From Acidobacteriota bacterium (GTDB lineage: Bacteria; Acidobacteriota; Terriglobia; Bryobacterales; Bryobacteraceae), in contig JANXSF010000041.1 in the NCBI GenBank assembly GCA_025352795.1, forward strand, positions 1 to 64,000: DNA of 64,000 nt, in the 5' to 3' direction. A model generated the notes under the pieces. That model worked only from the letters and a program-made list of their open reading frames with translations, searched no databases and was not told the DNA's origin. Below, in pieces: positions 44,799 through 62,926 of this stretch. Position 1 is the first letter of the stretch, and each line of letters starts with the position of its first letter. The position numbers and the translations under genes are program-made.

Positions 44799-44878
44799 AA
44801 ATTGTTCCAGCAACGGCAGGCAATTGGACGTTTTGTGGTTTGCCTGTGAATTCCCAGTCTTTGGATACACTACTAAGC

Positions 44879-45601: not shown

Positions 45602-45618
45602 GTAAAGACGAATTGGTG

Positions 45619-45624
45619 ATTATA
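45619..45624 (-). promoter_or_regulatory. -10 box TATAAT before the TauE/SafE gene
   Basis: Consensus TATAAT on the minus strand, 17 nt upstream of ATG 45601. No -35 consensus was seen. A 5-bp inverted repeat (GCGTC...GACGC) overlaps the spacer. Confidence 0.45.
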
Positions 45625-45654
45625 GCGCGTCTGGACGCTGTTTACCGTTCCATC

Positions 45655-46317: not shown

Positions 46318-46464
46318 TTGGGATGGTCCTTACTTCCAGACAATTTTCCTGGTAAGTGAATTCAAAAGTACCAGCAAAAAAGGTTCAGTACAATCCCCAA
46401 AAAGCAGTAATCGAATGGGTTACTAAACTTTGTAAGTCCTGATAGTCCTGGGACTAACATCAAC
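46318..46464. promoter_or_regulatory. 147-bp upstream gap with two GTAC boxes
   Basis: GTACC at 46368 and GTACA at 46388 lie 20 bp apart. TTCAAAAGTACCAGC at 46361-46375 resembles TTCAAGTACTAGC at 15310-15322, where the next GTAC follows 22 bp later. The match of both core and spacing suggests a common site. Confidence 0.4.
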
Positions 46465-48963
46465 TTATAGTACTTTCAAATACTTATTAGAGACGAGCAG
46501 ACTTCCCTCCGTGACGCCTTGGGGGCTGTTCCTTTTCAACGCATCATGCAATTCGACTGAGGAACTCTCGCCATCCAAGAACCTTCCAAAGGCTTTAGAG
46601 ATATTGAAAAGTTGCGTGGGCTGCTCATGCACAAACTCCAAACGAAAATGCTCAATACCCGCGCTGATCCAGGTATCCATGTATCTACTGGCTTGCTGTG
46701 ATTGAGCGCCAAACACAGTATTTCGACAGCCCACATCAGCCATTACAGGATGTTCCCGACCGTTTTCATCGCGCAAAGAAAGACGATGGGTTTCACAAGG
46801 ATGTCCGCAATCCTCGAACGTTGTCCCCGTTGAAAGAAAGCGACAAAACACGCAATGCTCCATGTGGAAAACAGGAAGATGGTGATAGGCAATTACTTCA
46901 AGGTTACTTGCCCCAGCGCTGGCGGCAAGCCTTGTAACTTGATCCGCATTTAAATCATGCGCAGGAGTAAGCCGGGTTAGTCCTAATTGGAGTAACATCC
47001 CGGCAGTGATGGCATTCGCTGCATTTAAACTGAAGTCGCCAATTAGTTGTGGATGCTTTCCGGTTGTAAGTGTATCTAACAACCCGCCGGAACGAACAAC
47101 AATGGGACATTCCAACTTTCGCAGAAAGTGTACAATCCGCTCTTCACTCGGCTTAAGAATCCGGGGACTGGCAACACGCGCCTCAATCCCGGCATTCTTA
47201 ATTTTCTCAACCGAATCTCGAAGTCCATACAATTCCAGATAGTCAAGAGTGATGCTCGCTGGTCTCAACTCCATTGCGGCATCCAATTGCGTTGCTGTTC
47301 GAGTTAACAAATGCAACTTCTTGCCACCAGAACCTTTGCCTGTGGTAACGGCTTCATCCAAAGCGGATCGGACGCATTGGACTGGGTCCGCTGTGGCTAT
47401 TGAATGAACAGTGCTCTGGAGTTTTACAAGCTCTTCCACCGCTTGTCGACGATGCAGGTTCAGTAATGAAGTTGGGACAAACGGGCTGCCTTCAATCTCA
47501 GTTTCAACCGAATGCAGTGCGTAGGGAGTATTTCCTAAACGGGCCACCTGCTCCTTCACCGAATCGTTTGTGAGGGAATGATTCTGCGCGGCAGCAAGCG
47601 GTTCATCCGACGTTATCCGAACCAGCAATTCTCCAAGCTTCCATTCTGATACAAGCGGTTTCCCACTTTGTGCTTTCACTGTTACTTGCAATGGCTGCTT
47701 TGCAATTGGCGATACAGCTTCTAAATACGGTCGTGCTGCTTTGTCGATATCGGGATCATGAGTGCGCCAAATTGGATCACCTGGATGCACTCGTTCGAAG
47801 TCAATTGCCCCATTGGCAAAGCCAAGTTCAATGTTGCCGTCCCCCAGTTCAATGACCGTAAAAATCCGCCCGCCTTCTTCTTTTTCCTGCGGACTCAGCC
47901 GATCAGCCCCATCGAATACGACGCCATCACCGGGCTTGATGGCAGCTAGAAAATGAGCGGCTGATGGCTGGATAGTAATGGCCTCGTTCAAGCAACCAAC
48001 CACTTCACCCATCCGCACGCCGCGATGCCGTGGAGCCCTTCCATTCACCACGGTCTGATGATTGGTTCCAGAAAGGAAATGTGGTGCCAAGCCCCGTGAA
48101 TAGACCTGTTCCAGTTGCAGATCCTCCAGCTTGGTTGCACCTAATGGCAGGCCAGCCCATGCTTCATCCACTGCCTTTCGATAGGCTGTGGTTGTCAGCG
48201 CCACGTAATCAGAATCCTTGTAACGGCCTTCAATTTTGAGGGAAGAAATTCCTATCTCAACCAGCTCTGGAACTTGGTGCAACGCAAATAAATCTCCAGG
48301 CGAAAGCAGGTAGCGGGCGTCACCCAGTGGCTTCAAAACATCGTCCACGATCAGTTCATAGGGCAATCGGCACGCCTGCGCGCACTGGCCACGATTCGCA
48401 CTACGACCACCCCACGCTTCCGATGAAAAGCACTGCCCCGAATAGGAAACACACAATGCCCCATGAACAAACATTTCCAGTTCGCAATCGGTTTTGGCAC
48501 GAATGGTGCGGATGTCACTCAGGGAAAGTTCCCTGGCCATCACCACACGGCTCACCCCATGACGCATGGCCAAAGCAATTCCCTCAGCGCTGGTAATGCT
48601 CATTTGTGTGCTGCCGTGAATGGCAAGATTTGGTGCAATCAGCCTTGCCAATTTAACCATGCCAAGGTCTTGCACAATAATGGAATCGGCCCCAGACTTG
48701 GCGATGGATTCCAAGGTCCTGGCTGCCGTCTCCAGTTCAGAATCGTATACCAGCGTGTTGAATGTTACGTATCCTCGCACGCCGCGGGCATGCAATGTTC
48801 GCATCACTTCGGGAAGCTCAGATACTGTAAAGCCAACCTTTGCCCGAGCACTAAAATGATCCAGCCCAAAATACACAGCATCCGCGCCTGCTTCAATGGC
48901 AGCGTGCAATTGCGGCCAATGCCCGGCCGGACTCATTACTTCCGGTTTGTTGGGAATGATCAC
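46465..48963 (-). CDS. peptidase U32-family protein (RlhA-like, long form)
   Basis: An 832-aa cytoplasmic protein of the U32 family with GTG start. Despite the name, members such as RlhA and the TrhP group act in hydroxylation of RNA bases, not proteolysis. The N-terminal domain has VMSPAGHWPQLHAAIEAGADAVYFGL in parts (SPAGHWPQLHAAIEAGADA), and the Cys set SYSGQCFSSEAWGGRSANRGQCAQACRLPY, again in parts (SYSGQCFSSE; NRGQCAQACRLPY). A DUF3656-like middle follows. A second U32-type half at the C-terminus has HMEHCVFCRFLS and CGHPCETHR, Cys that may hold an iron-sulphur cluster. It is the longest gene in this stretch and lies alone. Confidence 0.88.
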   Translation of the reverse strand: MIIPNKPEVMSPAGHWPQLHAAIEAGADAVYFGLDHFSARAKVGFTVSELPEVMRTLHARGVRGYVTFNTLVYDSELETAARTLESIAKSGADSIIVQDLGMVKLARLIAPNLAIHGSTQMSITSAEGIALAMRHGVSRVVMARELSLSDIRTIRAKTDCELEMFVHGALCVSYSGQCFSSEAWGGRSANRGQCAQACRLPYELIVDDVLKPLGDARYLLSPGDLFALHQVPELVEIGISSLKIEGRYKDSDYVALTTTAYRKAVDEAWAGLPLGATKLEDLQLEQVYSRGLAPHFLSGTNHQTVVNGRAPRHRGVRMGEVVGCLNEAITIQPSAAHFLAAIKPGDGVVFDGADRLSPQEKEEGGRIFTVIELGDGNIELGFANGAIDFERVHPGDPIWRTHDPDIDKAARPYLEAVSPIAKQPLQVTVKAQSGKPLVSEWKLGELLVRITSDEPLAAAQNHSLTNDSVKEQVARLGNTPYALHSVETEIEGSPFVPTSLLNLHRRQAVEELVKLQSTVHSIATADPVQCVRSALDEAVTTGKGSGGKKLHLLTRTATQLDAAMELRPASITLDYLELYGLRDSVEKIKNAGIEARVASPRILKPSEERIVHFLRKLECPIVVRSGGLLDTLTTGKHPQLIGDFSLNAANAITAGMLLQLGLTRLTPAHDLNADQVTRLAASAGASNLEVIAYHHLPVFHMEHCVFCRFLSTGTTFEDCGHPCETHRLSLRDENGREHPVMADVGCRNTVFGAQSQQASRYMDTWISAGIEHFRLEFVHEQPTQLFNISKAFGRFLDGESSSVELHDALKRNSPQGVTEGSLLVSNKYLKVL

Positions 48964-48983
48964 AATCTTAGGATATCGTGCGA

Positions 48984-49925
48984 CTACTTTTTCGGGACAG
49001 AAATTGTGATGTTGCGGAATCGAAGCAACCCTTTGTGATCGCCCTGCAGGAAGAAAGGTCCAGGTTCATCTTCATTGGAATCCAGTGCTCCGCCGGTGAT
49101 CCCTTCCATTTCCTGCTTGTCATGGATCATCACTCCGTTGTGGATTACCGTTACCTGACGGCCGATCAAAGTTACATCGTAAGTCTGCCATTCATTCGGT
49201 CGGGCAGGAACCTCCTTTGCAGGGGCATGATATCCGTAGATCGCCCCCATTTCATGACTAGGCAGTTTCCCGCCTTCGGTACCAATTTGTATTTCATAAC
49301 GACCGCGCAGGTAAATGCCGCTGTTACCATGTTCCGGACAATTGAATTCAATATGAAGCTTAAAGTCATCAAACTTACGTGTGGATTTTAGATTTGCGCC
49401 ACTTTCAGGATTTACCAATTCCCCATCTTTCACTTCCCAACGGCTTGGTCGTCGATTGGCGATTGGTTCCCAACCAGTCAAATCTTTCCCATTGAAAAGT
49501 TTTTCAGGACGTCCCCAGGCATTGGGCTCGTCCCTGCGTAAAGCTGGAGCACGAACTCCAGTAAGTTTTGCATCAATGACACCACCAGTTTTCTGGACGC
49601 CGGTGAATGTTTTTCCATCTGGAATGGAAAGTTCCCAAAGTACTTCTGGACGATCGCCGACTCGTGGCACCAAAGTAATCACAAGGCGCGCGCCGTCCCA
49701 TTTGGCACTGGTTGCTCGTCGAACAGCACCTCCACGAGGTTGAATGCGAATGGGGTAACCATCTTCTTCTTTCACCTCCATCCATTGCGGATAGGTTTCC
49801 GTAGATGTGGTTACGTTCAAATCCCAACGGCCCAAGAATACCTTGGTCTGCGCTTCACTGGGTTGCACTTGAAAAGCTAGCGCTGAAATCGCCGATATTG
49901 TGAACATCACAATGGAATGCTTCAT
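48984..49925 (-). CDS. secreted DUF1080 (3-keto-disaccharide hydrolase-like) protein
   Basis: A 313-aa exported protein. The signal peptide is SIVMFTISAISALAFQV. The C-terminal part from about residue 125 is a DUF1080 jelly-roll domain with LFNGKDLTGWE, FDDFKLHIEFNCPEHGNSGIYLRGRYEIQI (seen in parts) and GAIYGYHAPAKE. Families of this kind are concanavalin-like and some hydrolyse 3-ketoglycosides. The first 120 residues hold a beta-rich region typical of the acidobacterial form. TAAACT plus AGGGGGA lies just before the ATG. Confidence 0.88.
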   Translation of the reverse strand: MKHSIVMFTISAISALAFQVQPSEAQTKVFLGRWDLNVTTSTETYPQWMEVKEEDGYPIRIQPRGGAVRRATSAKWDGARLVITLVPRVGDRPEVLWELSIPDGKTFTGVQKTGGVIDAKLTGVRAPALRRDEPNAWGRPEKLFNGKDLTGWEPIANRRPSRWEVKDGELVNPESGANLKSTRKFDDFKLHIEFNCPEHGNSGIYLRGRYEIQIGTEGGKLPSHEMGAIYGYHAPAKEVPARPNEWQTYDVTLIGRQVTVIHNGVMIHDKQEMEGITGGALDSNEDEPGPFFLQGDHKGLLRFRNITISVPKK

Positions 49926-50014
49926 TCCCCCTAGTTTACCTTCTTAATATTCTTGATCAGCACTTAACGAAGCCTTATCACTACCGCGATGTTTCAGTTG
50001 CGATACTTTCAAAT

Positions 50015-51724
50015 GTGGACACAAACAGAGGCCAAACCGTTTTCCTATGGTTATTTGTAGGATTGCTTGCAGCGTCCACATTATTGTTGGCGGGGTTGCA
50101 ATACCGCTGGATCAATGAGGTGAGCGCCAGTGAACAGGATCGTCGACAAAGACGTTTGCAGGCCGATATCGACCGATTGGCAAGGGATTTCGATGACGAC
50201 ATTTCAAACATCTTTACAGCCATCGCAACTAACAACCGCGATTGGAGCGAACTGGATGATGCAACAATTGAAGCCGGATATTTGCAGCAGTTTGAGGCGT
50301 GGCGGGAATCGGCCAAACACGAACAGTTGGTGCGTCGCCTGGTAAGAGTGATCCCCAAAGGTGATTCCTTTGTTCTGAGGGAAGCCAACCCGCTTCGTAA
50401 AGAATTTCAAACTGTGGATTGGCCCCCCGGTTGGGAGAGGTTTCGAGAACGAATGAATGCCCGATTGAGAGGAGATGGTTCAAGGCCCGGACCCATGGAC
50501 GGCGGCACAATTAACGTCATTGAAATTCCGCGCTGGCGAAGTCGCGAAAGGATTGAAGGAAATGGAATTCGCGAATGGCTTGCCGTGGAACTTGATCTTC
50601 CATTAATTCAAAAGGAATGGATTCCAGAACTGCTGAAACATCATTTGGGCAGCACTGGTCCTTTGGAATATGATGCCGAAATCACCATGAGCGAAGAGCC
50701 GGAACGGATTGTATTCGCTTCTAACTCGACCGGGGAAACAATCGGCACCGCAGCCGATGCCACCTGCCAACTGTTCCGATTGAAATTTCCTCGTGGTCGT
50801 TTTGGGCCAGGGGGTGGACGTGGAAATTCCGAACAAGGCCGCTGGCAGTTGGCGGTGCGCCACAAACAAGGATCGCTGGAAGTGGCCGTGAGTCGGGCTA
50901 GAACACGAAATCTGGCTTTGACAACAGCCATTCTGGCATTGATGTTAGTGACCATTGGCGCGCTGGTTTGGTTAACAAGGCGAGCCCAGCAGTTGGCTTA
51001 TTTGCAAATGGAATTCGTCGCAGGTGTCTCACATGAATTGCGCACTCCGTTAACAGTGATTGGAACAGCAGCGTTTAACATGGGGAGTGGCATAGTGAAG
51101 TTTAATAATCAGCCCCAACTGGAACGCTACGGAACATTGATTCAGGATCAGACAAAAAAGTTGGGTGCCATTGTTGAGCAAGTACTTCGTTTCGCTGGGG
51201 CACGCCCAGATCAGGCTCATTGGAAACGGGAAGTAGTGATGGTGGACCAATTGGTTGACGATGCCCTGGCCGCCTCTGCCCAGGCAATTGCGGAATCGGG
51301 ATGCACTGTGAATTGGAACATTCCAACTGATCCCATTGCTGTGATTGGAGACGCTACTGGGCTCCAACATGTATTGCAGAATTTGATCAGCAATGCCGCC
51401 AAATATGGTGCCAGCGGCGGGCAAATTGAAATTGCTGCACTGTTAACTTCTGGTAACGTAGAAATCACCGTGAAAGATTATGGCATGGGCATTTCAAAAA
51501 GCGAGGCGGGTAAAATTTTCGAACCATTTTTTAGAGGCAAAAAAGCAGTTGCCGATCAGATTCATGGCACTGGGTTGGGCTTAAGCTTGGCCAAGAGAAT
51601 TGTTGAGGGCAATGGTGGAAAGATTTTTGTGAAGAGCCAGGAAGGGAAAGGGAGCGAATTTATAGTGCGTTTGCCAGCAGCCCCCAAGGAGTCGATGAGT
51701 GAATTCACGGATCCTGTTAATTGA
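50015..51724 (+). CDS. membrane sensor histidine kinase
   Basis: A 569-aa two-component sensor. One transmembrane segment near the N-terminus (VFLWLFVGLLAASTLLLAGL) and a second around residue 305 (LALTTAILALMLVTIGALVW) enclose a periplasmic region of about 260 residues without a named domain. The dimerisation domain has FVAGVSHELRTPLTVIG (about 340) with the phosphoacceptor His. The ATPase domain has VLQNLISNAAKYG, DYGMGIS and GLGLSLAKRIVEG. It overlaps the response regulator by 26 bp. The start is GTG 50015, 5 nt after TACTTT. Confidence 0.93.
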   Translation: MDTNRGQTVFLWLFVGLLAASTLLLAGLQYRWINEVSASEQDRRQRRLQADIDRLARDFDDDISNIFTAIATNNRDWSELDDATIEAGYLQQFEAWRESAKHEQLVRRLVRVIPKGDSFVLREANPLRKEFQTVDWPPGWERFRERMNARLRGDGSRPGPMDGGTINVIEIPRWRSRERIEGNGIREWLAVELDLPLIQKEWIPELLKHHLGSTGPLEYDAEITMSEEPERIVFASNSTGETIGTAADATCQLFRLKFPRGRFGPGGGRGNSEQGRWQLAVRHKQGSLEVAVSRARTRNLALTTAILALMLVTIGALVWLTRRAQQLAYLQMEFVAGVSHELRTPLTVIGTAAFNMGSGIVKFNNQPQLERYGTLIQDQTKKLGAIVEQVLRFAGARPDQAHWKREVVMVDQLVDDALAASAQAIAESGCTVNWNIPTDPIAVIGDATGLQHVLQNLISNAAKYGASGGQIEIAALLTSGNVEITVKDYGMGISKSEAGKIFEPFFRGKKAVADQIHGTGLGLSLAKRIVEGNGGKIFVKSQEGKGSEFIVRLPAAPKESMSEFTDPVN

Positions 51725-52385
51725 AGACGAACCAGGCTTGGCCCTGACTCTTTCCGACTTGCTTTCGTCCAGCGGTTACGACGTGGATACAGCCGGGGAT
51801 GGTATTTCCGGGCTCGCTAAGGCGAAAGGAAATCCTTACCACTTGATCCTGTTAGACGTGATGCTTCCTGGTCGCAGTGGGATTGAAGTGTGTAGAGAGC
51901 TGCGTCAGTCTGGATCGGATGTTGCCATTTTAATGCTCACTGCCCGTTCGCAAATTGTGGATCGTGTAGTGGGTTTGCGCACCGGTGCCGATGACTACCT
52001 CACCAAGCCTTTTGATCCATCTGAATTGTTGGCTAGGGTGGAAGCATTGCTGCGCAGGGTTCACAAGGAAAATCCAATTGCCGTAGTGCGGTTTGAGTTT
52101 GGCACGGTTCAAGTAGATTTTGAAAAGACAGAAATCTTGCGCAATGGAAAGCAAGTTAGTCTGGCAGGCAAAGAAGTGCAACTGCTTCGATACCTAATTG
52201 AGCATCGCGATAGGGTCCTTTCTCGTGATCAGATTCTGAGCGACGTGTGGGAATATCAACCCAACATTACAACTAGAACAGTGGACGTCCATGTTTCCTG
52301 GTTAAGGCAAAAGCTTGAGGAAAACGCCCAGTTTCCCAAACATATTCTCACCGTCCGCGGCGTTGGCTATCGATTTTCTGCATAA
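51699..52385 (+). CDS. OmpR/PhoB-family response regulator
   Basis: A 228-aa DNA-binding response regulator, the partner of the upstream kinase. The receiver has IEDEP at the start, the phosphoacceptor Asp in LILLDVMLPGRSG (about residue 52) and TKPFDPSELLARV. The C-terminal winged helix has LAGKEVQLLRYLIEH, RDQILSDVWEY and TVDVHVSWLRQKLE. It starts with GTG inside the kinase gene, 26 bp before its stop. It may control the redox genes that follow. Confidence 0.94.
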   Translation: MNSRILLIEDEPGLALTLSDLLSSSGYDVDTAGDGISGLAKAKGNPYHLILLDVMLPGRSGIEVCRELRQSGSDVAILMLTARSQIVDRVVGLRTGADDYLTKPFDPSELLARVEALLRRVHKENPIAVVRFEFGTVQVDFEKTEILRNGKQVSLAGKEVQLLRYLIEHRDRVLSRDQILSDVWEYQPNITTRTVDVHVSWLRQKLEENAQFPKHILTVRGVGYRFSA

Positions 52386-52425
52386 CCAACCAGGTCAAAT
52401 TCCATGGAACCGTGTTTGAAATTGC

Positions 52426-54237
52426 ATGGGACGTTTAATCTTAAGTTTCGGATTGTTCGCATTGTCGGCATGGGGTCAGGGTAGAGGTGGACAGGGAACA
52501 ATTCCGCTTGTTTCTCTAAAGACTATTGCTATTCCTGAAGTTCCAAACCTTAGTGACTACGTACAAGATCGTACCGCCCTCATCGTTTTAGGGAAAGCAT
52601 TTTTTTGGGACGTGCAAGCAGGTAGCGACGGTCGAACCGCTTGTGCCACTTGTCATTTCCACGCTGGTGGCGATCATCGGTCGCAAAACCAACTGGCCAG
52701 CCCGGCTTCACTTACTGGCGCGATTCCCGCAAATTTATTGCTTGCTCTAAACGATTTTCCTTTTCGCAAATTGTCCGATGCAAACAACAATCGATCCGCC
52801 GTTCTACAGAATAAACGTCAAGTTGCCGGATCTGCCGGTGTGGTGCATCGTAGCTTTTTTGGTTCCATTGCGGAAACATCCGAAGAAGACGGCGCTGACA
52901 TTGGCGGAGAAGCCGCCTTTTCAATTAATGGAATTAGAGTGAGGCAAGTAACAGCCCGGAACACTCCTTCCGTCATCAATGCAGTTTTTAATGTTCGTAA
53001 TTTTTGGGATGGACGGGCTCAAAGTCTTTTCAATGGAGCAACCCCATTTGGTGATTCCGATCCAGGCCTTCACTCGACTGTTTGGAAAAATGAACAGTTG
53101 ACCCAAACAAAAGTTCGATTGGCAAATTCCAGCTTGGCATCGCAAGCCGTCGGACCTGCATTGAACTCAACCGAAATGTCCTACGAAGGGCGCAACTGGC
53201 CCCTGTTTGCGAAAAAGATGTTGAATTTGACGCCTCTTGGTCGTCAGAAAGTTGCTGACAGTGATAGCGTATTAGGCGAGTTGGCGAACCCCGAAGGCAA
53301 TGGCTTGAACGCCCAATACACCGCTTTGATTCGTACTGCTTTTCAACCAGAGTATTGGGCCAGCCCGACACTGGTTGATGTTTCTGGAACTTCTTTCACA
53401 CAAATGGAAAGCAACTTTGCACTTTTCTGGGGCCTGGCGATTCAGGCTTACGAATCGACGCTGGTTTCTAACGACTCTCCCTTTGATCGATTCATGGAAG
53501 GCAATACCCAAGCGCTAACCAACTTTGAGCAACAGGGATTGCAGGAATTTCGCGGTGGCGGTTCGCAATGCACGCAATGCCATCAAGGTGGGGAATTTAC
53601 AGCAGCATCTTATTCCAACACCAGACGGGTCAATGCGAATACGAACGATCCGCAAGCCATGGGCTTCTTTCGCACCGGGGTCAGCCAAATTTCTGAAGAC
53701 GTTGGGTTAGCTGGAAAAGATGGATTTGGAGTGGCCTTGTTCCCCAATGCTCGAGCTGGTTCTTCTGCCGGATCGTTCAAATCCCCAGGGCTGCGGAATG
53801 TAGAATTAACCGGACCTTATTTCCATGACGGCAGTCAAGCCACGCTGGAACAGGTGTTAGACTTTTACGGTCGCAACGGAGATTTTCCTGGGGACGGAAA
53901 TCTGGGTAACGGCATTGGCCAAATCCGACTCACTGCACAGGAAAAATCACAAATGGTAAGTTTCCTGAAAGCCTTGACCGATGAGCGGGTTCGCTTTGAA
54001 AAAGCCCCTTTCGATCATCCTGCACTCTGCGTTCCCATCGGACATGCTGAACTTTCCCCAGGCGTGCTTCAACTGGACAATTCTGATCCCAGGTTTGCTT
54101 TAAGCGCTATAGACAAATGGGCACTGGTTCCAGCAGTTGGCAAGACCGGTTCCACTGCTCCGCTGCAAACGTTTGAAGAATTGCTACGAGGCGACACGGC
54201 TAAGGCTCACAGCATGACGGAATCCTGTCAACCGTAG
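52426..54237 (+). CDS. long dihaem cytochrome c peroxidase/MauG-family protein
   Basis: A 603-aa exported protein of the CCP/MauG family, longer than the usual 330-400 aa. After a signal peptide (LILSFGLFALSAWG) there are two haem-c motifs, CATCH (about residue 68) and CTQCH (about 383), with NTPSVINAVFNVRNFWDGRA and SPGLRNVELTGPYFHDGS, the family landmarks. Inserts between these explain the extra length. MauG-like members oxidise protein side chains through a high-valent iron state, while others are peroxidases; the role here is open. It sits 40 bp after the response regulator. Confidence 0.9.
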   Translation: MGRLILSFGLFALSAWGQGRGGQGTIPLVSLKTIAIPEVPNLSDYVQDRTALIVLGKAFFWDVQAGSDGRTACATCHFHAGGDHRSQNQLASPASLTGAIPANLLLALNDFPFRKLSDANNNRSAVLQNKRQVAGSAGVVHRSFFGSIAETSEEDGADIGGEAAFSINGIRVRQVTARNTPSVINAVFNVRNFWDGRAQSLFNGATPFGDSDPGLHSTVWKNEQLTQTKVRLANSSLASQAVGPALNSTEMSYEGRNWPLFAKKMLNLTPLGRQKVADSDSVLGELANPEGNGLNAQYTALIRTAFQPEYWASPTLVDVSGTSFTQMESNFALFWGLAIQAYESTLVSNDSPFDRFMEGNTQALTNFEQQGLQEFRGGGSQCTQCHQGGEFTAASYSNTRRVNANTNDPQAMGFFRTGVSQISEDVGLAGKDGFGVALFPNARAGSSAGSFKSPGLRNVELTGPYFHDGSQATLEQVLDFYGRNGDFPGDGNLGNGIGQIRLTAQEKSQMVSFLKALTDERVRFEKAPFDHPALCVPIGHAELSPGVLQLDNSDPRFALSAIDKWALVPAVGKTGSTAPLQTFEELLRGDTAKAHSMTESCQP

Positions 54238-54252
54238 CGCTCCATTTGAGCG
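54238..54252 (+). terminator. short hairpin after the peroxidase gene
   Basis: CGCTC and GAGCG pair around the loop CATTT directly after the peroxidase stop. It is a short stem with no T-run, so termination is doubtful. Confidence 0.25.
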
Positions 54253-54257
54253 ACTCC

Positions 54258-54289
54258 GAAGTATTCAGAATACTGAAGTATGCTGAATA
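54258..54289 (+). promoter_or_regulatory. tandem 15-bp repeat that also folds into a hairpin at the DUF1592 gene start
   Basis: GAAGTATTCAGAATA (54258-54272) and GAAGTATGCTGAATA (54275-54289) are direct repeats, 17 bp apart, each nearly palindromic. The same bases form a long stem: TATTCAG and ATAC pair with GTAT and CTGAATA around a TGAA loop, with one A-G mismatch. The hairpin ends 3 bp before ATG 54293. It could be a response-regulator site or a translational control element. Confidence 0.6.
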
Positions 54290-54292
54290 TGG

Positions 54293-56137
54293 ATGCTTCG
54301 CTACGCAATTTTCTTAACCTCCATTGGTGCTGCTTTTGCTGGAACTAATTCCTTTGAAACGGCGCAGGATTTCCTAAAGCGGAATTGCGAAAAGTGTCAC
54401 CATGAAAAAGCTGCCGCAGGGGGATTTAAACTTAACCTCGTCAGCACGAAAACCAGCTTGCAGACCGATGGGGAAAAGTGGAAGTCTCTTGCCCTGCGCG
54501 TGAAAAATGGTGAAATGCCTCCGCGTGGTGGTGCCGTTCCAACGCTGGATGATCGTGAACAGTTCTCGCAGTGGGTGGAAAGTGCAGTGCGCGCGGAAGC
54601 CTGCTCGGCTGGCATCGGTGCTGGACCCTCTCCCATCCGTCGCTTGAATCGCGATGAGTACTCCGCAACATTGCGCGATCTTCTGGATATGCACCTGGAT
54701 ATCGGCCATGCGCTGCCTGTTGATGGTGCTGGCGGCGAAGGGTTTGACAACGCAGCGGAAACTTTGTTTCTATCTCCATTGCATTCGGAAAAATACATGG
54801 AAGCGGCCAAGTTCGCCACGGATTTTGCGGCCAAGGAATATAAATCGCATGGCATGATTTTTGAGAAAAAAGATCACCCCCCGCAGTTGGTGTTGAAACG
54901 TTTTCTTACTCGCGCCTTCCGCAGGCCAGTAACCGATGCCGAGGTTGCACCCTACTTAACTTTGTTCCAGGCAGCGCAAAAGCAGGGCGAACCAGTGCAA
55001 CCGTCCATCCTTTTTGCCTTGCGAGCGGCATTGGTTTCACCAATGTTTCTTTACCGCTTTGAGCCAGCCAACGAAAGCAAAGAGCCCCGATTACTGGACC
55101 AATACGCATTAGCATCGCGACTCTCTTATTTTCTATGGGGAAGTATGCCCGATGAATTTCTGTTCGATATTGCCGCTGCCGGAAAGTTGCAGGACCCGGA
55201 AGTCTTGCAACAGATTATTCCCCGAATGATGAAGAACGATAGGTCACTTGGTTTTACCCAAAGATTCGCCGAACAGTGGTTGCGCACCAGAGAGTTGAGC
55301 ACCGATAAGGTTCCCGATGCGAAACTTTTCCCCACCTATGCCGCCAGTGAAGATCTGCGCTCCGATATTCGATTGCAACCTGTCTTGTTTCTGCGCGAGA
55401 TATTTTTACAAAATCTATCACTGCTGAATTTGATTGATTCCACCCACACCATTGCCACCAAACAATTGGCCACTCTCTTCGATGAAAAGTTGCCGTTGAA
55501 CCCCAACGCTGCCTCGCAACCACAGTGGGTGGAATTACCCAAAGGCAGCAGACGCGGTGGATTGTTGGGGATGCCCGCAGTGCTGACCGTTTCATCCTAC
55601 CCCTACCGCACCAGTCCTGTATTGCGCGGCGCCTGGATTCTGGAATCGATGCTGGGAACTCCACCACCGCCTCCGCCGCCCAATGTCCCTGCTCTTGAGG
55701 AAACAAATCCCGGTTCAACCAAAATGACCGTTCGAGAAAGACTGGCGCAGCACCGGCAAAATCCCAACTGCGCGGGATGTCATAGCCGCATTGACCCAAT
55801 GGGATTCGCTCTGGAAAATTACGATGCCATCGGTCGTTGGCGTGATCAGGATGAAGGCAAACCAGTGGATAATTCCGGCGAACTATTGGATGGAACCGAA
55901 TTCAATGGGCCCGCAGAATTGAAGCAGGTACTACTGGATCGTAAAGATTTATTTGTTCGGAATCTGGCCAGCAAAATGTTAGGCTACGCCCTGGGTCGTG
56001 GACTGACGTTGAAGGATGGCTGCGCGATTGATAGCATAGTGGCACAAGTTAAGAGCAAAGATTACAAAGCACAGGCGCTGTTAGAAGCCATTGTGCTGAG
56101 CGTTCCGTTTCGATATCAGGCAGGTTTGAAGCAATGA
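54293..56137 (+). CDS. DUF1592-type dihaem-c protein
   Basis: A 614-aa exported protein of the Planctomycete/Acidobacteria DUF1592 group, role unknown. A signal peptide precedes a haem-c motif CEKCH near residue 34. The following region has RRLNRDEYSATLRDLL, the usual DUF1587 mark (about residue 116). Later RLSYFLWGSMPDE and FRRPVTDAEV belong to the DUF1592/1595 region, TSPVLRGAWILE to the DUF1588 region, and a second haem motif CAGCH is followed by DPMGFALENYD (about 500-515). The C-terminus GYALGRGLTLKDGCAID belongs to DUF1585. It shares a 4-bp overlap with the DUF1552 gene, a pairing typical for both families. Confidence 0.92.
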   Translation: MLRYAIFLTSIGAAFAGTNSFETAQDFLKRNCEKCHHEKAAAGGFKLNLVSTKTSLQTDGEKWKSLALRVKNGEMPPRGGAVPTLDDREQFSQWVESAVRAEACSAGIGAGPSPIRRLNRDEYSATLRDLLDMHLDIGHALPVDGAGGEGFDNAAETLFLSPLHSEKYMEAAKFATDFAAKEYKSHGMIFEKKDHPPQLVLKRFLTRAFRRPVTDAEVAPYLTLFQAAQKQGEPVQPSILFALRAALVSPMFLYRFEPANESKEPRLLDQYALASRLSYFLWGSMPDEFLFDIAAAGKLQDPEVLQQIIPRMMKNDRSLGFTQRFAEQWLRTRELSTDKVPDAKLFPTYAASEDLRSDIRLQPVLFLREIFLQNLSLLNLIDSTHTIATKQLATLFDEKLPLNPNAASQPQWVELPKGSRRGGLLGMPAVLTVSSYPYRTSPVLRGAWILESMLGTPPPPPPPNVPALEETNPGSTKMTVRERLAQHRQNPNCAGCHSRIDPMGFALENYDAIGRWRDQDEGKPVDNSGELLDGTEFNGPAELKQVLLDRKDLFVRNLASKMLGYALGRGLTLKDGCAIDSIVAQVKSKDYKAQALLEAIVLSVPFRYQAGLKQ

Positions 56138-57474
56138 ATATCAACTTAGACAAAGCACGCATTTCACGACGCACTCTTTTGAAAGGTGCAGGTGTGGGGT
56201 TAGGACTTCCCTGGTTGGAATCCATGGCGGCCTCACCAGTTACTTCCGCAAGTCCAAATCGACTGGCTGTGTTGTATATGCCGAACGGCGTCAACGTAAC
56301 AGCCTGGACCCCGGAAGGCACCGGTCGCGATTTCAAACTGTCTCCAACCCTTGCCCCGCTTGAAGATTTGAAAGATCGCATCACAGTGGTCAGCAATCTT
56401 TGGAACGCAAATTCAAAAGGTGGTGACGGGCACTACGTCAAAGAAGCGGCCATTCTTACCTGCTCCACAATTAAGAAAACTCCTGGGGCTGATTTGGCTA
56501 ACGCCATTTCCATGGATCAGGTTTGTGCCCAAAAAGTAGCGTTGCAAACGCCACTCGCTTCGCTGGAACTGGGTGTCACACCAGTGGCCATCGGTGTGGA
56601 TGCAGTGGTGGGTTACACACGCGTGTATGGATCGCACATTGCCTGGAGCAACGCTTCCACTCCGCTGGCTCGTGAAATTAACCCACGCTCAGTTTACGAA
56701 CGTTTGTTTCGCGCCGCAAACGTTGGGAAAGGGAATCAGTCGAAACAAGATACTCTGCTGCTGGATCGTGTTCTGGGCGATGCCAAGCGTCTGCGAGCCC
56801 AAGTGAATTCTGCCGACAAGCTTCGCATTGACGAGTATATGTCGGTAATGCGTTCGCTTGAAGAACGCGTCACCCGATCAAGTAGCGGTGCTCAGCAAAG
56901 TTGGAAGCCGAAGGTTGCTCTGGCCTTGAAAGACGCGCCCACAGACCGGCCAACTGATCATGCCGAACACGTGCGGCTAATGATGGATATGATCGCTGTG
57001 GCTTTCCAAAGTGATACAACGCGTGTGGCCACGTTCATGTTCGGCAATGCCGTAAGCAATGTCAGCTTTCGCTTTCTGGAAGGCGTCACCGCTGGCCATC
57101 ACGATGTTTCCCATCATCAGAAAGAAGCCGATAAACTTCGTCAATATCAGTTGATCAATCGTTGGCACATTGAACAGTATGCCTACTTGCTGCGGAAGTT
57201 GGCGGCAATGAAGGAAGGCGAAACTAACGTGCTGGATAGTTCCATGGTGCTGTTTGCCTCAGCGTTGAGCGATGGTAACAGTCATAATCCGCACAAGCTG
57301 CCGTTAGTGCTGGCGGGTCGTGGCGGCGGCAGGATCGATTCCGGTCAGCACTTGGTATTCGGCGAGGATACCCCCGTCGCCAATTTGTACATGGGCATGC
57401 TAGAGGCCTTTGGCGCCCCTGTGGAACGATTCGCCGATAGCACTGGCGTGTTGCCCGGATTGTTGCGAGGTTAA
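56134..57474 (+). CDS. DUF1552 Tat-exported protein
   Basis: A 446-aa protein of the DUF1552 family, whose members are the usual partners of DUF1592 proteins. The N-terminus has a Tat signal (SRRTLLKGAGVGLGLPWLE). Family landmarks are LYMPNGVNVTAWTPEG, SSGAQQSWKPK-like linker and GVTAGHHDVSHH, ending with VLPGLLRG. Some sulphatase/phosphatase-like folding is suspected for the family but no catalytic set could be assigned. Its ATG overlaps the stop of the DUF1592 gene (ATGA), so the two products should be made together. Confidence 0.92.
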   Translation: MNINLDKARISRRTLLKGAGVGLGLPWLESMAASPVTSASPNRLAVLYMPNGVNVTAWTPEGTGRDFKLSPTLAPLEDLKDRITVVSNLWNANSKGGDGHYVKEAAILTCSTIKKTPGADLANAISMDQVCAQKVALQTPLASLELGVTPVAIGVDAVVGYTRVYGSHIAWSNASTPLAREINPRSVYERLFRAANVGKGNQSKQDTLLLDRVLGDAKRLRAQVNSADKLRIDEYMSVMRSLEERVTRSSSGAQQSWKPKVALALKDAPTDRPTDHAEHVRLMMDMIAVAFQSDTTRVATFMFGNAVSNVSFRFLEGVTAGHHDVSHHQKEADKLRQYQLINRWHIEQYAYLLRKLAAMKEGETNVLDSSMVLFASALSDGNSHNPHKLPLVLAGRGGGRIDSGQHLVFGEDTPVANLYMGMLEAFGAPVERFADSTGVLPGLLRG

Positions 57475-57475
57475 T

Positions 57476-57883
57476 ATGAGGCTGGCTCTGTTTATAATTG
57501 CCACCACTTTACTGGCCGATGATTTTTCTGGAACATGGATAGGACAATTCCCCACCAGAAACGGAGAGACGCAAGACATTGCGTTTCAGTTTTCGCAAGA
57601 TGGAGCAAAGCTGACCGGCAAATTATACGGTGACTACCGCAGTACGCCGATTGTGGAAGGCAGAATTTCAGGCAACGTTTTGGCTTTCGCCACCGCATCG
57701 CAAGAGCAAGCTGGTAACCAGATCAACGAAACCAGATTCCGTTTTAGTGGCAGATTAACCGAAGGCAAAATCGAACTCACCCGAGAGCGAGAAACGGCCA
57801 AGAATGCCGGGAATGGTGGCAATGTTCAGTTCAAAGGAAGTACGCGAGTGACGTTTACTCTGAAGCAAATTATCCGCAAATGA
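57476..57883 (+). CDS. small secreted beta-barrel-like protein, unknown function
   Basis: A 135-aa exported protein. From ATG 57476 it has a signal peptide (LALFIIATTLLADD) and then FSGTWIGQFPTRNG, a pattern of alternating beta strands with FQFSQDGAKLTGKLYG and LTEGKIELTRE, like a small lipocalin-type barrel. GAGG lies 6 nt upstream, inside the end of the DUF1552 gene, one base pair after its stop. It is the last gene of the co-directional set. I cannot name its family. Confidence 0.65.
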   Translation: MRLALFIIATTLLADDFSGTWIGQFPTRNGETQDIAFQFSQDGAKLTGKLYGDYRSTPIVEGRISGNVLAFATASQEQAGNQINETRFRFSGRLTEGKIELTRERETAKNAGNGGNVQFKGSTRVTFTLKQIIRK

Positions 57884-57889
57884 ACCGCA

Positions 57890-58285
57890 CTACTGCCGAT
57901 GCAACGCTACGTGATCCTTCAAGATGCATCGGTCCATTACCACGGTAATCCCCGCCTCTCGAGCCTTTTGCGCAGCCTGCTCATGCACTACCCCTTCCTG
58001 CATCCACACGCACTTTACACCAATTTGAATCGCTTCATCCACAATCGCTGGTACAAACTCAGCCCGACGAAAAATATTCACGATGTCGATTTTATCAGGC
58101 ACATCCAGAAGCGTAGGGTGGCTCACTTCCCCCAACACTTCGGTTTCTTGCGGATTCACTGGCACAATGCGATAGCCATGCTTTTGCATATATTGCGCCA
58201 CACCAAAGCTGGGGCGCAATTTGTTGGAAGACAACCCCGCTACTGCGATGGTTTTTGAGTTACTGAGGATCTCTTCAATTGTCAT
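57890..58285 (-). CDS. CoA-binding domain protein (YccU type)
   Basis: A 131-aa cytoplasmic protein of the CoA-binding Rossmann family. It has TIAVAGLSSNKLRPSFGVAQYMQ at the start, in parts (KTIAVAGLSSNKLRPS), VPVNPQETEVLGE (about 39-51), VWMQEGVVHEQAAQKAREAG and a terminal VMDRCILKDH. The fold matches the succinyl-CoA synthetase alpha N-terminal domain but lacks a catalytic domain. The role is unknown. Its start lies 11 bp inside the rluB 3' end, so it is last in the scpA-scpB-rluB operon. Confidence 0.88.
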   Translation of the reverse strand: MTIEEILSNSKTIAVAGLSSNKLRPSFGVAQYMQKHGYRIVPVNPQETEVLGEVSHPTLLDVPDKIDIVNIFRRAEFVPAIVDEAIQIGVKCVWMQEGVVHEQAAQKAREAGITVVMDRCILKDHVALHRQ

Positions 58286-59018
58286 GGCCGGGTTCTGGCA
58301 TCTTCAACAGTTTACGAAAACGTTCCATTTCACGAGTAGTCAAGTGACGGCATTTGCCCGGTGGAATTCCTTCCAGCCCAATAAAACCAATGCGCACCCG
58401 ACGCAGCTTTTCCACCAACCGACCAAAGTGGCTGAACATCAACTTAATTTGATTAGTGCGACCTTCAATCAACTTCACTTCATACCAGGGATTTTCCTGT
58501 GGACGAATTAATTTCAAACCAGCCGGTGCCGTGCGATTACCGTGGATCGGAACGCCCCTGCGGAACTGCTCGCATTGATCATCAGTAAGCTGTCCGGTGA
58601 CCTTCACCACATACACTTTTTCCAGTTTCGATTTCGCTGAAGTCACTCGGTTGGCAAAGTCGCCATCATTGGTGAACAGCAACAGCCCTTCCGTGTTGTA
58701 ATCCAAACGACCGACGGGAACCACACGTTCCTTCATGCCGCGGACGAGCTTCATCACCGTGGGTCTGCCTTCTGGATCTTCCGTAGTAGTTACGCAGCCC
58801 TTGGGCTTGTTCAACGCAATATAGATCAGGTTTTTGGGTGCATGCAACAGTTTGCCATCCACCTTGATGTGGTCCTGATCCAGGTCGGCCTTGCTGCCCA
58901 GCTCCATCACCACTTTGCCATTCACCGTGACCATGCCCTGCACAATCAGGTCTTCGGCCTTGCGGCGGCTTGCCACACCAGCGCGGGATAAGATTTTTTG
59001 TAAACGTTCTACGGCCAT
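58275..59018 (-). CDS. rluB: RluB-type 23S rRNA/ribosomal pseudouridine synthase
   Basis: A 247-aa pseudouridine synthase of the RsuA/RluB/E/F group, probably modifying large-subunit rRNA. An S4 RNA-binding domain at the start has RLQKILSRAGVASRRKAEDL in parts (LQKILSRAGVASRRKAE). The catalytic Asp is in VGRLDYNTEGLLLFTNDG (about residues 97-114). The end has EGRTNQIKLMFSHFGRLVEKL-type residues. AAGGAA precedes the start. Genome neighbours scpA, scpB and rluB form a classic conserved trio. Confidence 0.93.
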   Translation of the reverse strand: MAVERLQKILSRAGVASRRKAEDLIVQGMVTVNGKVVMELGSKADLDQDHIKVDGKLLHAPKNLIYIALNKPKGCVTTTEDPEGRPTVMKLVRGMKERVVPVGRLDYNTEGLLLFTNDGDFANRVTSAKSKLEKVYVVKVTGQLTDDQCEQFRRGVPIHGNRTAPAGLKLIRPQENPWYEVKLIEGRTNQIKLMFSHFGRLVEKLRRVRIGFIGLEGIPPGKCRHLTTREMERFRKLLKMPEPGHDN

Positions 59019-59032
59019 GATGGAACAGTTCC

Positions 59033-59866
59033 TTACTGCTGATTTCCTTCTACTGCGGCTTTCGCCAATTCTTCTGCCGCCTCTGGTGCTAGCTCTTCGA
59101 CAGTTTCCACTGCGGGCTGATCGCTTTCTGAGGAAGCTTCCGCCTCAGTCTTAATCTCTACGACTTCCGTAGACGCGGCTTCCACAATTTCTTCGTCAAT
59201 CGCCAGACGACGCAACTCTTCAAATTCCTTCAACGTGGGCAGCTCGTTGATGCCACTCAAACCGAACTGTACCAGGAACTCGCGAGTCGTTTTGTAAAGG
59301 ATCGGCTTGCCCACCACATTCTTGCGGCCGGACGTCATGATCAACTTCCGTTCCAGCAGCGTCTTCAACACGCCTGCACCTTGCACACCGCGTATCTCCA
59401 TAATCTCTGGCGCCGTAATCGGTTGCTTGTATGCAATCACGGCCAACGTTTCCAGCGCCGCCAATGACAATTTCAAAGGCTGTTTCAGATTTTTAACGAA
59501 CTGCCGGATCACGTCGTGATGTTCCGGCTTGGTGCCCATCTTAAATCCGCCAGCCACTTCTTTAATAATTACGCCACGCTCGGGTCGCGAACAATCTTCC
59601 AGCAAAGCAGCGATCACCGTTTGAATGCGCGTCTTGTCCTGCTGCAAAGCAATGGCGATTTGTTCAATAGACAGAGGCTCTTCAGTGATGTAGACAACGG
59701 CTTCCACTACCGCGCGCAGATCAAGGTCACTCATTTCCGTCGGAGCGACTGCCTCCTCACCCAAGACAATCTGTTCCGGGACGATCTCTTCCTGTACGAC
59801 CTCTTCAGTCACGACGGGTTCTGGAATCGCTTCCGCTTGCTGCTGTTCTTCTTGCTCTTCCATCAC
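59033..59866 (-). CDS. scpB: segregation and condensation protein ScpB
   Basis: A 277-aa subunit of the SMC-ScpA-ScpB condensin complex. The core, about residues 45-205, holds two winged helices with VEAVVYITEEPLSIEQIAIAL (in parts, VVEAVVYITEEPLSIEQIA), AALETLAVIAYKQPITAPEI and KTLLERKLIMTSGRK. Acidic low-complexity tails lie at both ends (EEQEEQQQAEAIPEP and the final EELAPEAAEELAKAAVEG), longer than usual for the family. It follows scpA by 2 bp and precedes rluB by 14 bp. Confidence 0.94.
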   Translation of the reverse strand: MMEEQEEQQQAEAIPEPVVTEEVVQEEIVPEQIVLGEEAVAPTEMSDLDLRAVVEAVVYITEEPLSIEQIAIALQQDKTRIQTVIAALLEDCSRPERGVIIKEVAGGFKMGTKPEHHDVIRQFVKNLKQPLKLSLAALETLAVIAYKQPITAPEIMEIRGVQGAGVLKTLLERKLIMTSGRKNVVGKPILYKTTREFLVQFGLSGINELPTLKEFEELRRLAIDEEIVEAASTEVVEIKTEAEASSESDQPAVETVEELAPEAAEELAKAAVEGNQQ

Positions 59867-59868
59867 TA

Positions 59869-60657
59869 TTAAATGTAATCCCCTTCCAATTGAGAAATGG
59901 CCTGTTCATCTTCTGAAACTTCATCAAACTTATCGCCACGCTTCAGGACAATGTCCCCAAATTCATCTTTCTGCGCCAAGCTCACGGCCTGCAATTTTAC
60001 CAGTTCCAGGATAGCCAGAAACAGGCAAATCATCGCTCTACGGCTGCGTTGCCGTTCAAATAAATCTGTAGCCGAAACCGGTTCGCTCTTACGGGAGTTC
60101 CCCAGCACATTACGCAGAAAGTGGATCATGTCCGGAACGCTGACATCCTCTTTCGTAATCTCAAACGCCGGACGCAGCTTCGTTCTTTCTAAAATCTTTT
60201 GCAGAGTCTGAACCAAGTCGAAAAGCGTGACGTCCAACCCTGGGTCATCATCCTCGCTCATGAAATTCTTCAACTGAGGATTAGACCAAATCACTTCTTC
60301 CACCAAACGTTTCTGTTGCAGCATTTCCGCCGCATTCTTGAACCTTTCGTGTTCAATCAACTGGTCCACCAGCTCTTTGCGCGGATCTTCCTCGGGGTCC
60401 ATTTTCTGAAGCTCAGGGTCCCTGGGCAACAACGTTTTAGACTTTATGTGGATCAGCGTAGCTGCCATGTATACGAACTCGCTAGACAACTCAAAATCAA
60501 GTTGCAGGGCGCTTTCCATATACTTCAGGTACTGGGCTGTTATGTCTGAGATGGGGATATCATAGATATCTATCTGCTGTTTGCGAATCAAATCCAGCAA
60601 CAGGTCCAATGGCCCATCGTACTGCTCTAAATGAAAATTAAGGGGCGATGACGACAC
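59869..60657 (-). CDS. scpA: segregation and condensation protein ScpA
   Basis: A 262-aa kleisin that joins SMC heads with ScpB. The N-terminus FHLEQYDGPLDLLLDLIRKQQIDIYDIPIS, seen in parts (YDGPLDLLLDLIRKQQ), is family specific. Helices with LDFELSSEFVYMAATLIHIKSKTLLPR, in parts (SSEFVYMAATLIHIKSKTLL), and a C-terminal winged helix (FLAILELVKLQAVSLAQ) follow. Start is uncertain: GTG 60657 gives the normal length, whereas ATG-type starts upstream to 60783 would run into the S9 peptidase gene. The gap to that gene is about 49 bp. Confidence 0.93.
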   Translation of the reverse strand: MSSSPLNFHLEQYDGPLDLLLDLIRKQQIDIYDIPISDITAQYLKYMESALQLDFELSSEFVYMAATLIHIKSKTLLPRDPELQKMDPEEDPRKELVDQLIEHERFKNAAEMLQQKRLVEEVIWSNPQLKNFMSEDDDPGLDVTLFDLVQTLQKILERTKLRPAFEITKEDVSVPDMIHFLRNVLGNSRKSEPVSATDLFERQRSRRAMICLFLAILELVKLQAVSLAQKDEFGDIVLKRGDKFDEVSEDEQAISQLEGDYI

Positions 60658-60706
60658 TACTTCAATAGGGTAACATTGACGCTTGTGGAAAACCCTCAAA
60701 AGCGGC

Positions 60707-62773: not shown

Positions 62774-62778
62774 AACCT

Positions 62779-62791
62779 CTCTATTGTAGAG
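62779..62791. promoter_or_regulatory. inverted repeat at the S9 peptidase -10 box
   Basis: CTCTA and TAGAG (62779-62783, 62787-62791) flank TTG, and the minus-strand TACAAT box (62788-62783) lies within it, 9 nt before ATG 62773. This could be a small operator over the -10. Confidence 0.3.
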
Positions 62792-62920
62792 TTTCTCAGG
62801 TGCTTTCAGAAATCGAGGAGAGCGATTTATTACGCGTATCGTGTCATCTTGTTCAGAAGAAAGAAGAACGCCTTTCTCCCGAATGCAAGCTTTTTGGCGA
62901 CGCCAAGCCCATCCCACTTG

Positions 62921-62926
62921 TAAACT
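62921..62926 (+). promoter_or_regulatory. -10-like box TAAACT at the SDR gene start
   Basis: TAAACT touches ATG 62927 and lies exactly 6 nt before the in-frame GTG 62933. Since 6 nt is the recurrent spacing here, the real start may be GTG 62933, two codons later. Confidence 0.4.

Follow-up and report, generated by a model that had tools for sequence, protein, structure and literature searches.

Six genes lie between positions 50015 and 57883 on the plus strand of the window, the whole stretch of 64,000 nucleotides analysed here. The first, which begins with GTG, encodes a sensor histidine kinase (50015–51724; Pfam HisKA and HATPase_c) and overlaps by 26 bp, at 51699–51724, the gene of an OmpR/PhoB-type response regulator (51699–52385; Response_reg and Trans_reg_C). 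A gap of 40 bp separates the regulator from a long di-haem protein of the CCP/MauG superfamily (52426–54237; Pfam CCP_MauG), which has 603 amino acids and the two CxxCH motifs CATCH and CTQCH. The next gap, of 55 bp, contains a near-perfect dyad of 28 bp without strand assignment (54262–54289, 12 of 13 pairs), located just 5′ of the start of a gene for a DUF1592 protein of 614 amino acids (54293–56137). Two CxxCH motifs and five domains (DUF1587/1595/1592/1588/1585, in Pfam PSD3-PSD5-PSD4-PSCyt3-PSD2, all over cut-off) were found in this protein. Its gene overlaps, in an ATGA, that of a DUF1552 (HXXSHH) protein with the Tat-type motif SRRTLLKG (56134–57474). The last gene encodes a small, probably secreted protein of 135 amino acids (57476–57883); we place its start at the ATG at 57476, one base past the DUF1552 stop, instead of the TTG at 57410 given in the open-reading-frame list. 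Signal peptides were assessed by eye.

The original prediction had described six co-directional genes with short gaps or overlaps, the kinase–regulator overlap, the CCP/MauG and DUF1592 proteins with two CxxCH motifs each, and a Tat-exported DUF1552 protein coupled by ATGA. All of this was recovered with Pfam support, the Tat export as a putative property read from the motif; the small protein has no Pfam family match at E ≤ 0.001. The CCP, DUF1592, DUF1552 and small proteins all have relatives in which residues are conserved, and the kinase and the regulator have homologues.

Conservation of the two halves and of the join

Close homologues of the CCP occur in 48 of the 237 family genomes (57 places, tabulated as 55 loci, as the tandem second copies in G134 and G136 share the locus of the first copy), and those of the DUF1552 protein in 63 (67 places). 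Close relatives of both proteins are present in 38 of the genomes searched besides the source, and they are neighbours in none of these 38. The flanks of the 54 other CCP loci, examined up to about 8 kb and often less, contain a single DUF1592/DUF1552 pair, which is not the same one and is inverted. The only same-genus genome in the list (G013) carries the kinase–regulator pair, the CCP and the DUF trio on three contigs. There the kinase–regulator pair adjoins the counterpart of the U32 peptidase gene that flanks it in the window (69% identity), and the trio is followed by CoA-binding, pseudouridine-synthase and ScpB genes, also as in the window, but has no CCP before it. Some joins may go unseen in draft contigs.

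A pattern scan gave 4 promoter-like sites (7.1 in shuffled sequence) and 12 terminator-like ones (10.9 in shuffled sequence); in view of these counts it was used only for absence in the gaps of the six-gene run, where it found no terminator. Since the genes are also co-directional and the gaps short, co-transcription of all six in the source genome is possible. The same features, together with the two overlaps, speak for one six-gene system, in which the kinase and regulator would control a MauG-like oxidase, and this oxidase, together with the DUF1592 and DUF1552 proteins, would mature or oxidise a substrate. Against it stand the 38 genomes that hold both ends apart, the division of the pieces over three contigs in the congener, and the CCP flanks, whose single pair is a different, inverted one; on this gene-order evidence we rejected the single system, which is very improbable.

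An order unique to one genome would, according to the original prediction, make the set a chance neighbourhood. The six-gene order is indeed unique among the genomes searched, but the halves are not chance, because 24 of the 55 CCP loci have a related kinase and/or regulator upstream and the trio recurs as a unit (11 of 11 loci). From the regulated periplasmic redox system that had been proposed, the sensor-linked MauG-like periplasmic haem protein is thus supported, whereas a link to the DUF1592/DUF1552 set lacks support apart from possible co-transcription in the source genome. The run probably consists of two independently conserved modules, A (50015–54237) and B (54293–57883), which adjoin by happenstance in the source genome. 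Since the genome is a draft of 140 contigs and the join is seen nowhere else, misassembly could also account for it; however, the run sits in a contig of 195,603 bases, the G+C content is even over 44000–62999 (0.47–0.54 per kb) and neither side of the join has a disrupted gene end, so that an error of this kind is scarcely credible.

The two-module explanation is refined, and not excluded, by a history in which a rearrangement set the old DUF trio 3′ of the sensor–CCP operon. The trio would now be expressed by read-through from this operon or under the regulator, for which the dyad is a possible site. The 55-bp gap and the common direction fit such a capture, and the dyad occurs once in the genome; in 10 relatives, the 160 bases preceding DUF1592 contain nothing comparable. 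The dyad could equally end the upstream transcript. In one other genome (G004, L171), a distantly related (30–40%) kinase–regulator pair is located directly before the DUF trio, which gives the adjacency of trio and sensor a second instance. We regard this history as possible but on the doubtful side. As a conserved operator, the dyad was rejected for want of a counterpart in the 10 relatives.

Sensor linkage and haem site of the long CCP

Within 5 kb upstream of the CCP, a related kinase and/or regulator is encoded in those 24 of the 55 loci, window included, 13 in the direction of the CCP and 11 divergent. The share is 23 of 42 among the loci with at least 4.5 kb of upstream sequence, again with the window. 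These counts were 26/55 and 24/42 in the script output, from which two weak downstream matches (G223 and G132) were removed by hand, only G223 belonging to the 42-locus set. In three of the 24 linked loci (G126, G129 and G170) the kinase–regulator pair lies 2.4–4.4 kb from the CCP. With the sensor region of the kinase alone as the query, at least 17 of the 47 further genomes with a CCP show a match near it (hand count among the matches listed). The most widespread clusters of CCP neighbours are the regulator (24 loci) and the kinase (23 loci); as a control, the same queries were run on 20 loci of the DUF trio and hit a neighbouring kinase or regulator at one of them. The CCP can occur without the sensor beside it, since of the 41 other CCP loci that extend 4.5 kb or more upstream, 19, among them that of the congener, are without such a kinase or regulator there. 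One locus sample comprised the best 80 of 127 loci. Many recurrent open-reading-frame clusters near the CCP were discarded on visual inspection, as they look like antisense artefacts of the ORF calling. Of the four papers that a literature search on bCCP and two-component systems listed, none has a title on such a link.

The N-terminal region of the kinase, of about 265 amino acids, was taken by eye as an extracytoplasmic sensor; this region (50120–50910) matches no Pfam family at E ≤ 1. A kinase homologue of 61% identity occurs in the congener at a separate location, and the 26-bp overlap with the regulator is repeated in five relatives (L208, L217, L218, L229 and L041). In a tree of kinase–regulator pairs, from which L231 dropped out and G151 was left out, the pair of the window is sister to the unlinked pair of the congener, and the CCP-linked pairs are spread over several branches, with some deep nodes poorly supported. 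The link between sensor and CCP may therefore have arisen or been lost repeatedly.

The CCP scores 84.5 bits against the CCP_MauG superfamily cut-off of 25.6. It was rejected as MauG proper of TTQ biosynthesis (NCBIfam TIGR03791, 96.3 bits against a cut-off of 443.9) and as MbnH (TIGR04039, 126.1 against 362.9). The long CCP family is characterised by about 600 amino acids, 309 residues between the haem histidines, and conserved GSxG and FDHP motifs. In a MauG-type site, a Tyr is the distal ligand of the second haem, a Trp lies between the haems, and Gln and Glu are located at the first haem. Among 91 distinct sequences from the 108 kept (50 of them from L069–L118, mostly Pseudomonas), His77, His386, Glu250 and Tyr481 are present in all 91, Trp194 in 90 and Gln240 in 89; without the mostly Pseudomonas half (n = 41), the respective counts are 41, 40 and 39. 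Tyr481 aligns opposite a Tyr of the MauG-like 6e1c and opposite the Met of the bCCP 1nml. His531, conserved in 90 of the 91 sequences, could replace Tyr481 as the distal haem ligand. Because the family keeps the MauG/MbnH-like residues Trp194, Gln240, Glu250 and Tyr481, the CCP is likely to carry out haem chemistry driven by peroxide in the periplasm.

The AlphaFold model of the CCP (pLDDT 79.2, pTM 0.86) matches 6e1c with Z 21.5, MauG with 18.6 and BthA with 16.5. The canonical peroxidases YhjA and MacA score equal to 6e1c and above MauG and BthA, so the structural ranking does not single out MauG. The best profile match of the family is likewise a bCCP (1iqc), and the profile also finds MbnH-like proteins, MauG and BthA. 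In common with the MauG/MbnH/BthA group, the CCP has two CxxCH haem motifs and the same core fold, and its conserved residues include a Glu that would lie at the peroxidatic haem, a Trp that would lie between the haems and a Tyr that aligns with the distal ligand of the second haem, but it differs in its length, its 309-residue spacing, its GSxG and FDHP motifs and its tie to a two-component system in many loci. PMC6405878, a source for some of these residue roles, gives a Ser in place of the Trp between the haems in BthA. Compared with canonical bCCPs, whose profile and structural matches are as strong as any, the CCP is much longer and has Tyr481 where 1nml has Met.

The long CCP has also to be weighed as a lipid oxygenase, like the oleate 10S-dioxygenase/diol synthase of P. 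aeruginosa (FadCcp) or RoxA, in which case the sensor would answer fatty acids or oxylipins. PMC4496055 describes FadCcp (PA2077/PA2078) and RoxA as long periplasmic di-haem proteins related to bCCP that have a MauG-type PYFHxG motif, and the similar length and motif favour this reading, as do tandem CCP copies in some loci and, in three long homologues, weak matches to RoxA-like_Cyt-c that stay below the cut-off. The comparison with FadCcp was made by the published spacing and motif description only; by the same paper the haem spacing differs (H130–H375 in PA2077, His77–His386 here) and the distal ligand in FadCcp and RoxA is a C-terminal His. Gln240, Glu250 and Tyr481 fit peroxide-reactive members, and the family profile gave no RoxA chain at E ≤ 0.001; RoxA is not listed among the structural matches of the CCP model either, an absence which does not exclude it. 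Taken together, a lipid oxygenase is improbable.

The DUF1592–DUF1552–small protein trio

Both CxxCH motifs of the DUF1592 protein are invariant among 17 aligned sequences. The DUF1552 protein scores 324.1 bits with PF07586 against a cut-off of 30 and contains the HxxSHH motif; in 23 sequences His323, His327, His328 and the Tat-type Arg12-Arg13 are invariant, and Ser326 is kept in at least 90%. The three genes follow in order in all 11 of the closest loci (L169–L179) in a 61-genome sample. The source genome contains 11 copies of DUF1592–DUF1552 pairs, the trio among them, and 43 copies of DUF1501, which is related to DUF1552. In the part of PMC5615132 that bears on them, planctomycete-type PSCyt3/PSD genes possess the same PSD3/5/4–PSCyt3–PSD2 set and a fixed neighbour, which, from the literature listing, would be DUF1552. 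The trio clade differs from these in the addition of the small secreted third gene.

By sequence, neither DUF1592 nor DUF1552 has a solved relative at E ≤ 1, and the small protein gave one match to solved structures (E 0.073), taken as chance. The DUF1552 model (mean pLDDT 76.5) matches 483 of 999 structure chains at Z ≥ 8 and is predicted to adopt the fold of the alkaline-phosphatase/sulfatase superfamily (Z up to 16.7, rmsd 3.5, about 250 residues aligned). Its C-terminal half aligns with the DUF1501 profile (E 1.2e-4, probability 55), which in turn aligns with sulfatases (E 6.4e-6, probability 85); the direct profile link between DUF1552 and sulfatases failed (probability 2). The literature search found nothing that joins DUF1501 to the alkaline phosphatase superfamily. 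The model places DUF1552 with the sulfatases and nucleotide pyrophosphatases in fold. In contrast to the superfamily, DUF1552 shows by eye no evident nucleophile of the usual kind and no clear counterparts of several metal ligands, and HHDVSHH and DGNSH stand out; for this catalytic-site comparison, the profile alignments reach the C-terminal half only.

Proposed roles of the two modules

In module A, the membrane kinase may sense an envelope or oxidative signal, and the OmpR-type regulator would drive its own operon and the CCP. The exported CCP would react with H2O2 and, because its residues resemble those of the MauG/MbnH type (the Tyr at the aligned distal position, Trp, Gln and Glu), would probably hold a pair of oxidising equivalents in a high-valent state of the two haems, to be passed to peroxide reduction or to the oxidation of a periplasmic substrate. 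A Spy/CpxP-like protein encoded 67–81 bp upstream of the CCP in 5 loci (Metal_resist over cut-off in one of two scanned) fits a role in envelope stress. In module B, the DUF1592 protein may serve as an exported electron carrier with two putatively ligated haems, and the DUF1552 protein as a Tat-exported metalloprotein with putative metal ligation in its alkaline-phosphatase/sulfatase-like fold, both acting jointly on a substrate, perhaps a carbohydrate.

A broader picture, which as a whole we put forward as speculative and rather unlikely, is that the long Tyr-type di-haem CCPs form a distinct and widespread branch of the CCP/MauG superfamily, which acquired two-component control more than once in Bryobacteraceae-like bacteria and acts in envelope stress as an inducible oxidant in the periplasm, and that, separately, the DUF1592–DUF1552 pairs form a large class of exported enzymes whose metalloprotein, of alkaline-phosphatase fold with a remodelled His-rich site, works with a di-haem cytochrome and so gives this fold a redox role.

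The analysis removes a tempting single-pathway account that lacked support and leaves two testable ones. The recurrent link between sensor and CCP offers a genetic-switch handle on a large uncharacterised MauG-like group, and the predicted alkaline-phosphatase fold of DUF1552 provides a structural hypothesis for a pair that the source genome carries so many times over.

Composition and conservation of the run

The six genes lie on the forward strand as originally predicted: a kinase (50015-51724), a regulator (51699-52385), a long di-haem CCP (52426-54237), a DUF1592 protein (54293-56137), a DUF1552 protein (56134-57474), and a small protein (57476-57883), whose ATG at 57476 is one base past the DUF1552 stop. 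Pfam confirms the named domains in five of the six, including HisKA and HATPase_c in the kinase; the small protein has no Pfam family, and the N-terminal region of the kinase has no Pfam match at E ≤ 1. A near-perfect 28-bp dyad (54262-54289) lies between the CCP and DUF1592 genes, and its pattern occurs once in the genome, allowing up to 3 mismatches.

We searched 237 same-family genomes, the source genome counted in, and found CCP matches (E ≤ 1e-130) at 57 places in 48 genomes and DUF1552 matches (E ≤ 1e-190) at 67 places in 63 genomes. Both are present in 39 of the 237, and in none of the 38 besides the source genome are they adjacent; in genome G122 they share a contig with 1.68 Mb between them. 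A few joins could be masked by draft contigs, but hardly as many as 38. The flanks of the 55 CCP loci examined, which reach ~8 kb at most and are often shorter, contain a DUF1592/DUF1552 pair in two cases: the window itself, and G074, whose pair is a different one (44% and 32% identity) and is inverted. The proposal of a single regulated periplasmic redox system is supported in part, for a sensor-linked periplasmic haem enzyme and not for the inclusion of the DUF1592/DUF1552 pair, given that the two ends are adjacent in 0 of 38 other genomes. The run is a neighbourhood of two known kinds and in that respect ordinary.

The sensor pair and the CCP

Of the 55 loci, the window counted in, 24 have a related kinase and/or regulator upstream of the CCP; these genes are co-directional with it in 13 and divergent in 11. 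The queries were the whole kinase and whole regulator, which may catch other OmpR-type pairs. Upstream sequence extends for 4.5 kb or more in 42 loci, of which 23 have such genes and 19, the congener's included, do not; the raw totals of 26 and 24 took in weak downstream matches, which were taken out. In G126, G129, and G170 the genes are 2.4-4.4 kb from the CCP. The regulator (24 loci) and the kinase (23 loci) are the commonest neighbour clusters, and the same queries applied as a control to the DUF1592-DUF1552-small protein trio find a kinase or regulator nearby in one of 20 loci (L171), where the pair is distantly related. When the sensor region alone served as query, a match near the CCP was listed for at least 17 of the 47 remaining CCP genomes, and each genome with any match had one to four listed in total. 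The kinase and regulator genes also overlap by 26 bp in L208, L217, L218, L229, and L041. In a tree of 31 kinase-regulator pairs, the window pair stands beside the congener's unlinked pair, near those of G170-172 and G077, which are linked; pairs linked in either orientation are spread over several branches, some deep nodes being poorly supported. A Spy/CpxP-like protein is encoded 67-81 bp upstream of the CCP in five loci, and Metal_resist is over its cut-off in one of two such proteins scanned. From this neighbourhood evidence, the Spy/CpxP-like neighbours included, we read the kinase, regulator, and CCP as a putative envelope-stress sensor that would control a periplasmic haem enzyme. One CCP locus with an upstream kinase-regulator pair (L259:6835-13325) is followed, on the opposite strand, by DUF4198 and DUF4331 genes.

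The congener G013 is the sole same-genus genome among those listed by the searches. Downstream of its DUF trio (73%, 82%, and 73% identity) stand the counterparts of the three genes that follow the trio in the window (CoA-binding, pseudouridine synthase, and ScpB), while the 5' genes (L169) differ. Its kinase-regulator pair (61% and 85% identity) is on a separate contig (L208), beside the counterpart of the window's U32 peptidase gene (69% identity), and is followed by an acyl-CoA dehydrogenase fragment, judged by eye; a third contig carries the CCP. Therefore, the synteny breaks of the window fall on each side of the CCP. A divergent 3-keto-disaccharide hydrolase (PF06439) family gene (48984-49925, reverse strand) lies 5' of the window's kinase; the congener has its U32 peptidase gene immediately next to the kinase instead.

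The long CCP as an enzyme

Among the best 80 of 127 loci, members of the long CCP family come from Acidobacteriota, with more distant ones from cyanobacteria, Opitutae, Planctomycetes, Pseudomonas, and other groups. The haem-motif His77 and His386, Glu250, His467, and Tyr481 are invariant in 91 of 91 distinct sequences, and Trp194 (90), Gln240 (89), and His531 (90) nearly so. Pseudomonas makes up most of one half of these sequences; among the remaining 41, the five residues are present in 41 each and the latter three in 40, 39, and 40, respectively. The predicted model (pLDDT 79.2, pTM 0.86) matches YhjA (Z 21.9, rmsd 2.5, 281 aligned), MacA (21.5, 2.6, 289), the MauG-like 6e1c (21.5, 2.9, 320), MauG 4l3g (18.6, 2.7, 295), and BthA (16.5, 3.2, 314); thus, the fold cannot separate MauG-like from canonical peroxidases. 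Tyr481 aligns with the Met of one canonical bacterial cytochrome c peroxidase and with a Tyr of 6e1c. PMC6405878 describes such a Tyr as used by BthA and MauG, and BthA as able to form a bis-Fe(IV) state even as it works as a peroxidase. The case for the putative MauG-like chemistry rests on Tyr481. We rank lower the alternative of a lipid oxygenase, like the P. aeruginosa oleate dioxygenase/diol synthase PA2077/PA2078 described in PMC4496055. As MauG or MbnH proper the CCP was rejected, falling under both curated model cut-offs.

A second di-haem protein, of ordinary length (338 aa; 35765-36781, reverse strand), adjoins a sugar-type periplasmic binding protein (34803-36781 together, reverse strand). 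Against the NCBIfam models it reaches 264 bits for MauG and 256 for MbnH, under both cut-offs, and it shares 36% identity with the C-terminal half of the long CCP over 196 columns. Elsewhere, long CCP domains are fused with galactose-oxidase-like, discoidin-type, and repeated Ig domains in open frames of 1722-2223 aa (L073:5478-12146, L062:5337-11444, and L064:197-5362), possibly placing peroxide-making and peroxide-using domains in one protein. Tandem long CCPs occur as two copies in L048 (7908-11637), two in L049, and three in L063, the last truncated by the locus edge.

The DUF trio and the predicted DUF1552 fold

The order DUF1592-DUF1552-small protein is kept in all 11 closest DUF1552 matches outside the source genome in a 61-genome sample (L169-L179); the eight more distant loci (L180-L187) have no small gene downstream, two of them having <300 bases of downstream sequence. 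The source genome (6 Mb) contains 11 PSCyt3 and 11 DUF1552 genes, paired by position, and 43 DUF1501 genes over the cut-off. For Verrucomicrobia, PMC5615132 describes PSCyt genes as usually neighboured by members of two uncharacterised families, often with sulfatases encoded close by.

The top Foldseek matches of the DUF1552 model (pLDDT 76.5, pTM 0.77) are sulfatases (1p49, E 2.3e-7), and a second structural comparison gave Z 16.7 to a nucleotide pyrophosphatase-type phosphodiesterase and 16.5 to iduronate-2-sulfatase. Sequence profile comparisons back the chain from DUF1552 to DUF1501 and from DUF1501 to sulfatase, and do not support a direct DUF1552-sulfatase link. We infer that the DUF1592/DUF1552 pair may combine a redox partner with a hydrolase fold. 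The run is of moderate interest for its recurring sensor-CCP link and for the fold predicted for DUF1552.
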